From: Mycteria americana
Lineage: Eukaryota > Chordata > Aves > Ciconiiformes > Ciconiidae
Direction: 5' to 3'
NCBI RefSeq assembly: GCF_035582795.1
Contig: NC_134366.1
Location: forward strand, 10,260,161-10,324,160
DNA length: 64,000 nt
The notes below the pieces were generated by a model that searched no databases, had not been told where the DNA came from, and was given only the letters and a program-made list of their open reading frames with translations. Within the stretch, counting starts at the first letter, position 1, and each line of letters begins with the position of its first letter. The position numbers were made by a program, and so were the translations under genes. Of this stretch, positions 41,330 through 58,979 are shown piece after piece.

Positions 41330-41361
41330 GCGGGAGGCGCCGGAGGTCGCGGCAGCCGCGG
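41330..41361 (+). other. Probable non-coding first exon of RNF32
   Basis: Placed only by the strong donor-like G|GTGAGC at 41361/41362 just downstream of the X-box within the CpG island. The start is a guess, as no TATA or initiator was identified. Confidence 0.35.
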
Positions 41362-42289
41362 GTGAGCGCCGGTGTGCGGGGCGGCCCTTGGGGCGGTGTC
41401 AGGCGCGGAGACGAGGTCTGTGAGGTAAAAAAGGTACGAGAGGTAAAGAAGAGCAACGAGACAACGGGCAGGGGGCTAGTGCAAGGCCAGGAGCAGGGTC
41501 AGCAGTGCCGTGAGGTGGCCCGGCCGCGTGGCCGGACTGGCAGGGTGCGACGCCCTCCTCCCGCCCGGGGACGGGGCTGCTCCGTGTGAGGGGCTGGGGC
41601 GGTGACAGTGCTGCCACTCTGGTCACCCAGAGGTGGAAGGCGGACTCGAGCCGTAACTCCGGGAGCGCACGGTTGGCTGTGGTAGCAGGAGGAACAACTA
41701 GACACTGAAACAGAACAGCGTTGTAAGCAGTGGCTCCGGTTTGCCGCAGCCACCTTTAAAGGGTGTTGCCTCACCCTCTGCCAGTCTCCGCTACCGCGCC
41801 ACGCCATAGGTTTTCCTGCTCTACTGATGAGATGGTTGAGATTGCAGCGGAGCAGCTTCAGCCCCAAAGGGGTTGCTAACATCGTCCTTCCTCTATGTAT
41901 CACAGGCTTCCTTGCCTACAATAAACTAATCTGGCAGAACAGTTCAATGGGGTTTATTGCTGTGGCCATATTTTTTCCTTGGTTCAGCTTGAAATTTGTG
42001 ATTACCGCCATTCATTTTGAAGCTATTCTGTGTACGTTATGGGCAATCCACTGGGGGTGAGATGAGGCTGACAGGAGAGGGGCACAGTTGGAGGTTTATG
42101 GATCCAGAGTTAATTTCTGTGCCTGGAATACATGTTAAGCAGTCTCCCGTGGTAGGCCTAGGAGAAAACGAGTGAAATGGTAGGTTTCTCTTCTGCTATC
42201 AATGAGGCCGTTTCTGCTGAGAAATATTATTCAAGTTTCTTGTACATGTCTGTTTGTAGAGCCACACGACTCTTGTAAAATTAGCTAGA

Positions 42290-42321
42290 GATTATCAATG
42301 GACCATGATGATTTTTACAAG
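42290..42321 (+). pseudogene. Candidate RNF32 initiation-codon exon
   Basis: ATG codons at 42305 and 42308 lie just before a donor-like ACAAG|GTACGA (donor at 42322). Family members begin MLKNKG with an exon break after the AAG codon, and the 3' end ACAAG fits that. The residues after the ATG (MIFT-) do not match, and joining to the next exon from either ATG gives a frame that stops at a TGA within about 115 bases. The exon is either wrongly chosen or also damaged. Confidence 0.3.
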
Positions 42322-42849
42322 GTACGATTTCACATCTTTTAAAATAAGGCAGAAGGGTGGGGAGAAATGGAGGAATAGATAGATAAGCCCATTCCCTGTA
42401 TAAAAATAATATATTCTTGTTTATATGCAGTGTTCTGGAAGGCAAGGTTAGCCTTTGGGATTGTTTTTAATTATATTAAAGTAAAAATGTGTTTGGGCAT
42501 GCCAAAATTTTATAGTCCATAATGAGTTTATTGCATATAATAATTATGGGCTCAGTAATTAAAACTTAAAAATTACTGCTATTTTATTTAATATAAATGA
42601 TAAATCAAAGATTTCATTTGACTTTTTATAAGTTAAAACTAGGATGTGTCAGAAACATCAATCTTAAATTTCATATTATGGTAATTGTATGTTAGGCTTC
42701 AAGTACAGGAGTTGCATGTGTATAAAAGCCTTTGACAATTCAAAAATATTGGCTAAGAGCAGAATTTCTTTTAATTTAGTATAATATATATGTTTTAAAA
42801 TCATTTATAACAATAATTATTCAAGGTTGTGGGTTTTTTTTCTTTCTAG
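42322..42849 (+). other. RNF32 intron
   Basis: AT-rich intron ending in a good polypyrimidine tract and TTTCTAG acceptor. Nothing else recognised. Confidence 0.4.
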
Positions 42850-43122
42850 GGCCGCTCCTCCAAACCAGAGAGACGATAGCAGTTTCTGCAGTTGCTTTAC
42901 AGGATCATATAATACAGAGTCATGAGCTCCAGGATCTTTCATTAGCAGATCCTTTTACATCAAGGACAAGGAATACCAAGAACATTTACAAACCCATGAA
43001 CAAAGAAATGGTCAGAGCAGTAGTAGATACTGGACTAAGAAAAAAGAGTACTCGGCACAAAAACAAGGAAGATGCAGAAAAGGAGTATGTTCTTGATCCC
43101 AGTCCTGCACAGCTAACATTAG
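42850..43122 (+). pseudogene. RNF32 coding exon, N-terminal region
   Basis: The exon has acceptor CTTTCTAG and donor ATTAG|GTAAAC. The main frame (codons from 42852) reads AVSAVALQDHI near 42880-42912 and KEYVLDPSPAQLTL at the end, matching the family (NAVALQDH..., EKEYVLDP...LTL). It leaves one base to complete the Ala codon of the next exon. The first residues, GRSSKPE, which match family GHSSKK, are in a different frame (codons from 42850), so an indel lies around 42868-42878. The exon is 273 bases and precedes the first RING. Confidence 0.85.
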
Positions 43123-57400: not shown

Positions 57401-57730
57401 TAAATATAATAAATGCATATATATATTTGCTCTTTTGAGGCATGGCAGTCTTTCCAGCACAATTGAGTGTTTTCTGTTTTCTTAAATTTTGGTCCATCTG
57501 TTCCAAATCAGGAATATTAAAAGGTTTTTACAGTTCAGAGGTTTACCTCAGCAGCATCTCTCTTCTACTCAAAGAGCCCGAAGAGACTGTAGACAAAATG
57601 TAGAATCAAAGTGTTAATAGTTTCTCAAAATATATTACAGTCATAACATTTGAATATTTGCATTAGCATATTGCTGATTTATTTACCTCCCGTTGTTTCA
57701 CTACAGGTTGGTTGGTTTGTTTTTACTCAG

Positions 57731-57969
57731 GCATTTCGGCAAGAGATATTTGACTGTCCCATCTGTATCATGCCACTCAGTCCTACAGTTCAGCTGCCTG
57801 TCTCTTTTCTGGTAACAGCAATCAGTTTTCACGAGAGACTGTTCTGCTTTCTTGTTCACATTTCTTTCATCATACCTGTCTTCAAGCATTTGAAGAGATT
57901 TCCTTGGGAGAATGACATATTTGTCCTTTATGTCACTCATATTATCAAAAGAAAATCCTCAAAGGTTGA
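57731..57969 (+). pseudogene. RNF32 last exon: second RING-H2, frameshift and TGA
   Basis: Acceptor TTTTTACTCAG is good. From 57731 the frame gives [20 protein letters not shown], with the first ligand pair C-P-I-C. The rest of the domain appears in another frame (codons in register with 57841): [29 protein letters not shown], then TGA at 57913-57915, then HICPLCHSYYQKKILKG and a terminal TGA at 57967-57969. All eight ligand positions are recognisable across the two frames (C-P-I-C, C-S-H-x2-H, T-C, C-P-L-C). The frame change lies around 57790-57825. The uninterrupted first frame to 57985 is a frameshift product and not a RING. Confidence 0.9.
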
Positions 57970-58576
57970 TACATACAGCTCATAATGAACTACCTCGTAG
58001 ATCGTAGCTGATAACACATGTACTTCTAACTTCGGAGCCTTTTCAGAGCCAGATCTTCCAAGAACAAATGATTTTGTATGGACAATGGTACTCGCCTTGT
58101 ATTTAGAGAAATGAAAGTTAGAAGGGTGCTGTTGCTTGCCTTTTATACTCAGTTTCACCTTTGGTCTTCCAGCATTTTTGTTCTTCCTCTGTCACTCCCA
58201 CCTTCCTCCATTTTCATTTCCCTTTCCCAAAGATGAGCCACAGTTGTTTCGGGCATTGTGTTCATTCAGCAATAACCTGCTACTGTCCCTCACCTGGTTT
58301 TTTTTTCTTTACACCTCATTTGTTGCAGCACAGGTTCCCACTCACAAGGACTGCCACTACTGCAACTGGTGGTTGTAGCAAGAAACACTTTTTTTCCCTT
58401 TTCCTTCAGCCATGTTTACTAACTAGAGCCCTGGCTGCTGCTTCTGCTTGAACGCCTCTGACCAACTCCAGAGAGCTGCAGGTAGATAAAAGTGGAGAAA
58501 ATCCTCAAAGATGCAGGATCATTTCAGAACTTCAGAGAACTTGGAACCAGAGTAAGTACTGACCACTTTCAAGAGA

Positions 58577-58582
58577 AATAAA
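58577..58582 (+). terminator. Poly(A) signal, possible RNF32 3' end
   Basis: First AATAAA on the + strand about 600 bases after the terminal stop. Position is plausible for the RNF32 3' end. No experimental support. Confidence 0.35.
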
Positions 58583-58979
58583 AACATGATTATGACTTTT
58601 CAGCTATGCATTGCTGAAACTAAGTCAGGTCACCACAGATTATGTGCTCATACTTTCCTTATAAATTAAGACAAGAGTCAGACACTAAACCAAAATGAAA
58701 TAGCAACATATCAAGATAACAAGAAAATTCATTTTGCATAAAAAGGCAATACCTGATCAACTAGACAAATGATAGAGAGCTTCCAAATAATGCTGACAAG
58801 ATCAAATTGTGTCACACATCAGGTGAGGTGGTCCCCACGATACCAGGTGTATGGGTTTACAGTCTTAAGCTGGAAGTGGGAAAGGCTGTATTAGAGAATC
58901 ATTAGATAAAAAGTGTTTTACAGATCGGTTGCTGATCAACTCTGCTTTTGGGCAGCCAGAAAGCTGTCTACAGGGCTTT

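Follow-up and report, generated by a model that had tools for sequence, protein, structure and literature searches.

Losses of several bird genes have been described. MDA5 (IFIH1) is a pseudogene in storks and rallids, with three Ciconia species named, and more than half of the lesions are common to different species (PMC8619217). STK33, possibly a spermatogenesis gene, is a unitary pseudogene of neognath birds that also died in place (PMC4509753), and the ciliary genes WDR93 and CFAP46 have been lost repeatedly and independently in distant birds (PMC10445033). Among the literature matches listed for RNF32, no avian loss or bird pseudogene was found by title, and the death of this gene in storks seems to have gone unreported so far. 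Here, we analyzed a window of 64,000 nucleotides from the wood stork Mycteria americana, in which RNF32 is a pseudogene, probably a unitary one. We hold with high confidence that it was inactivated in place, with its introns retained, by lesions of which some probably predate the split from Ciconia maguari.

The coding region consists of eight exons in consecutive order on the + strand (42298-57969). A tblastn search of the window with RNF32 of Pluvialis apricaria recovered, in order and on the + strand, all coding exons but the 24-base start exon, with a top score of 153 bits (against at most 25.8 bits when 30 block-shuffled copies of the window were searched). The start exon was called by eye, against the MEHHDFYK-type starts of other birds. 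Thus, the order of exons given by a previous sequence-only reading stands, while its count of seven becomes eight. The features are as follows.

41702..41871, + strand: 5' exon region, holding an ATG at 41832; exon 41832-41871, donor GTTGCT
42298..42321, + strand: coding exon 1, canonical ATG, MDHDDFYK; donor GTACGA
42850..43122, + strand: coding exon 2, with a +2-base lesion within 42865-42875
47854..47996, + strand: coding exon 3, first half of RING1; Trp to TGA at 47907-47909
49710..49742, + strand: coding exon 4, a 33-base micro-exon, VLLSCSHVFHK
50191..50315, + strand: coding exon 5, end of RING1; donor lost, A at 50316
50535..50643, + strand: coding exon 6, region of the IQ motif
50644..57142, + strand: large intron of 6.5 kb
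57143..57308, + strand: coding exon 7, +1 T in a run of eight T (57197-57204)
57731..57969, + strand: coding exon 8, RING2; -1 base at 57791-57795, TGA at 57913-57915, terminal TGA at 57967-57969

Judged by its sequence, this locus is the RNF32 orthologue: two RINGs flank an IQ motif, and the best database matches are RNF32. A Pfam scan of the read-through protein detected RING1 (PF13639, 46 bits, cut-off 27.3) and IQ (PF00612, 24.3 bits, cut-off 20.3). In the region of RING2, where the read-through protein has an X, the scan gave only a match to PF23412 below the cut-off (23.6 versus 27.3), and this domain is clear in the alignment with other birds. Among the matches listed, many other birds have RNF32 models that include RING and IQ domains, and full-length models occur in many birds, a crocodile and turtles. 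Thirteen of the 14 splice sites between the coding exons are GT/AG; since introns and splice sites are kept, a retrocopy was rejected. Upstream, two pieces of 41702-41870 resemble the translated start of the Cariama model, at 53% and 79% identity. A perfect 26-base tandem duplication lies at 47188-47241, and an Rfam scan of the whole window gave no matches.

Six disabling lesions were found in this gene. Five had been named in the sequence-only reading, and all of them are present: the Trp codon changed to TGA at 47907-47909, the donor of exon 5 with A for G at 50316 (TTAG|ATAAGC), the run of eight T at 57197-57204 where seven are needed for the frame, the -1 frameshift of the last exon, which is one base short at 57791-57795, and the TGA at 57913-57915 in RING2. 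The sixth is new and consists of two surplus bases in a short GA repeat within 42865-42875, at the start of exon 2. It breaks the frame from the canonical start, which then reads GRSSKPERR and stops at a TAG, and it is bypassed by the annotated upstream start at 41832. Exon matches and lesions together bear out the earlier proposal that this is RNF32 in a bird and that its coding gene is dead. Two ways of rescuing splicing after exon 5 were rejected: ATAAGC is unlike the U12 consensus, and an in-frame TAA precedes the cryptic GT downstream. An alternative exon 8 frame on the + strand (57650-57985) is open in the window and resembles the tail of an Apteryx RNF32 isoform at 76%; the -1 lesion of exon 8 moves the reading into this frame.

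A second stork is available for comparison as the RNF32 model of C. maguari (P0003), which NCBI labels LOW QUALITY. Such a label means that the model needed correction against the genome. In a tree of 37 rows, with an unsettled bootstrap, the window and C. maguari group at 99/96 (nine of the 46 aligned rows were omitted, namely Alca and eight models that are short or divergent), and they have 13 departures from the intact-bird majority in common. Compared with Pluvialis, P0003 has five single-residue gaps, at residues 30, 117, 242, 311 and 352. Four of them lie opposite window codons CAG, TGA, CGA and TGA, and residue 311 lies opposite the -1 lesion of exon 8. Stops and codons one transition away from a stop make up only 33 of the 356 codons compared in the window; the chance that at least four of five gaps fall on such codons is about 3e-4, and the chance that both window stops are among the four is about 0.011, assuming equal mutability. 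As none of 240 fetched proteins contains an X, the database seems to drop X residues from proteins, and we infer that the gaps in P0003, a protein model, are stop codons of C. maguari. In addition, the RING cysteine C159 is replaced in this species.

Two stop positions of the window thus match residues missing from the model of a sister species, and from this protein-level agreement we infer that lesions are common to both storks. Judging from these aligned sequences, the ancestor of the two storks probably carried a broken RNF32 already. The Trp stop is supported as predating the split from C. maguari, the RING2 stop probably predates it and the exon 8 frameshift possibly does, while the remaining lesions may be younger. 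Codons are not equally mutable, however: the RING2 stop falls on a CpG codon and the same residue is absent from the Leptosomus model, which makes the Trp stop a more reliable marker; the RING2 stop may be recurrent rather than shared. The split between C. boyciana and C. maguari has been dated to about 17.9 million years ago (PMC11494145). If Mycteria branches off outside Ciconia, the loss of RNF32 is at least that old. At the position of the lost Trp codon (47907), the models of the ibis Mesembrinibis (P0007) and the treeswift Hemiprocne (P0123) have Cys and Gln, respectively.

Constraint was examined at invariant sites, i.e., those that are the same in 20 intact birds and three reptiles. 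Five of the 24 amino acid differences between the window and C. maguari fall on such sites, one of them at a boundary of the C. maguari model, where 10.4 would be expected at random. The resulting ratio of 0.48 is the second highest of 12 pairs (the other 11 range from 0.07 to 0.58) and is not neutral; on these sequences, constraint is not clearly gone. Departures at invariant sites do not set the storks apart (3.2% and 3.9%), given that the fastest of the intact birds reach 4.8%.

The loss may reach beyond storks. Three protein searches, of which the best 120 of 712, 120 of 198 and 120 of 219 matches were considered, returned at least ten bird models labelled LOW QUALITY (Ciconia, Alca, Opisthocomus, Cariama, Leptosomus, Ara, Amazona, Chlamydotis, Podargus and Cyanocitta), including two parrots (Ara and Amazona) and a jay (Cyanocitta). 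As an extension of the pseudogene reading, we lean slightly towards several independent losses of RNF32 in Neoaves, the storks being one case. Eight of these models depart from invariant sites at 7.0-23.6% (Cyanocitta 23.6%, Ara and Amazona 18.2% each, Cariama 13.9%), compared with 0-4.8% in 20 presumed intact birds. Replacements of RING cysteines occur in the models of Ara, Amazona, Cyanocitta, Opisthocomus and Cariama, with C137 and C159 affected in several of these. By hand count, passerines make up none of the 44 bird entries in the best 120 of 712 matches and one of the 48 in the best 120 of 219, namely Cyanocitta, the source of the query. However, this extension rests on annotation, with the window as the sole genome read, and departure figures are raised by intron read-through and odd tails in Cariama, Chlamydotis, Cyanocitta and Otus. 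Ciconia (3.9%) and Alca (0.7%) depart little, and the Alca model seems intact save for one absent micro-exon; moreover, some unlabelled models are also divergent (Psophia 9.6%, Sula 8.4% and Harpia 7.1%). The annotation suggests repeated decay of RNF32 in birds and provides a lead. In view of the broken or partial models in several other Neoaves, the previous description of a loss in one avian lineage is probably too narrow.

The persistence of the dead gene could be explained by what its introns contain. In mouse, intron 8 of Rnf32 carries the Shh enhancer MACS1 (PMC5296767), and in chicken SHH, RNF32 and LMBR1 are mutual neighbours (PMC4747547). Human MACS1 spans hg19 chr7:156459384-156460049 (PMC8555986). 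We propose the large intron (50644..57142) as the putative seat of MACS1, although exon numbering is ambiguous. The results of the knockout paper give a zinc-finger-coding exon as number 7 (PMC12317687); if this is exon 5 of the window, intron 8 corresponds to 50644-57142. According to the introduction of the same paper, translation starts in exon 2 and the first RING break comes at exon 4 (PMC12317687); on that count, intron 8 would correspond to 57309-57730 and measure just 422 bases. The former is preferred on size. FOX- and RAR-like motifs cluster at 53295-53923, which, having no chance control, is no evidence for MACS1. Tentatively, and with less than even confidence, we suggest that coding RNF32 collapsed repeatedly in Neoaves (storks, parrots and passerines) while the gene body was held by this intronic Shh foregut enhancer. 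The large intron has further features on the + strand. An open frame at 51157-51459 is a possible alternative last exon by sequence, its end resembling the translated tails of two RNF32 models, Columba livia isoform X4 (55%) and Chlamydotis (70%); 52022-52104 resembles the tail of the Otus sunia RNF32 model in two short pieces (80% and 67%); and 55290-55720 is presumably a 3' fragment of a CR1-like LINE, by eye.

A plausible course of events would begin with RNF32 becoming dispensable, as it is for the fertility of knockout mice. A first lesion would then have drifted to fixation before Mycteria and Ciconia split, further lesions would have piled up afterwards, and the dead gene body would have been retained because it lies inside the Shh regulatory domain. 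The link to sperm biology raised by the sequence-only reading is weak, because Rnf32-/- males in mouse proved fertile and had normal sperm (n=3 per group; PMC12317687). A tie between RNF32 and flagella is only suggestive: an RNF32-like transcript cluster of the alga Emiliania huxleyi has six ESTs from haploid and none from diploid cells, and it is tabulated with axonemal dyneins, CCDC37 and IQCG (PMC2784329).

Other explanations of the Mycteria locus are less probable. It is unlikely that the window holds a dead duplicate of an intact RNF32 elsewhere in the genome: an intact stork protein might be concealed in cluster P0001, which has 74 members, but the window copy retains its introns, and among the matches listed the sole entry of Mycteria is a stub of 122 residues and the sole entry of C. 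maguari is the LOW QUALITY model. This stub, a "hypothetical protein" of M. americana (P0218, QYF61_008050), has an RNF32 part identical to the window. It was rebuilt exactly from 41832-41871, 42850-43122 and 47854-47909, ending at the TGA that replaces Trp, and this agreement identifies the bird as M. americana. Presumably it comes from the same assembly as the window, and in that case it is no independent check on the lesions. The annotated open product is an N-terminal fragment without RING or IQ. Retention of this fragment for a RING-independent function is very unlikely: its frame is open over three exons from 41832 to the TGA and the N-terminal part of RNF32 is well conserved across birds, but a Pfam search with the stub gave no match at E 0.001, and a further stop is apparent within the stub region of C. 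maguari, at residue 30. Finally, it is extremely improbable that the gene is intact and only appears broken through errors of sequencing or assembly: one of the six lesions lies in the run of eight T, the only exonic lesion within a homopolymer of at least seven bases (the window has 15 A/T runs of exactly eight), and one in the short GA repeat, but the other four lie outside such contexts, lesion types are mixed (substitutions, a splice site and indels), and both stops coincide with residues absent from the model of another stork species, so that the lesions are not all sequencing errors and the previous dismissal of such errors is upheld.

Inactivation of RNF32 in M. americana thus adds to the order in which loss of MDA5 was described earlier, in three Ciconia species. 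Natural RNF32 knockouts would be informative about the role of this double-RING protein, and if the loss is recurrent and MACS1 is conserved, the locus would separate coding from regulatory constraint within a single gene body. Like RNF32, MDA5 was inactivated in place in Ciconiiformes, by stops and indels (PMC8619217); the two differ in that MDA5 is an antiviral sensor and RNF32 a testis and embryo protein with RING and IQ domains, and in that a neutral dN/dS has been shown for MDA5 (PMC8619217) whereas RNF32 is known here from the DNA of one genome and protein models. While STK33 underwent a single ancient loss with large deletions, stork RNF32 has eight exons left and many birds seemingly keep it intact (PMC4509753). 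WDR93 and CFAP46 are ciliary genes, whereas the flagellar link of RNF32 is only suggestive (PMC10445033).
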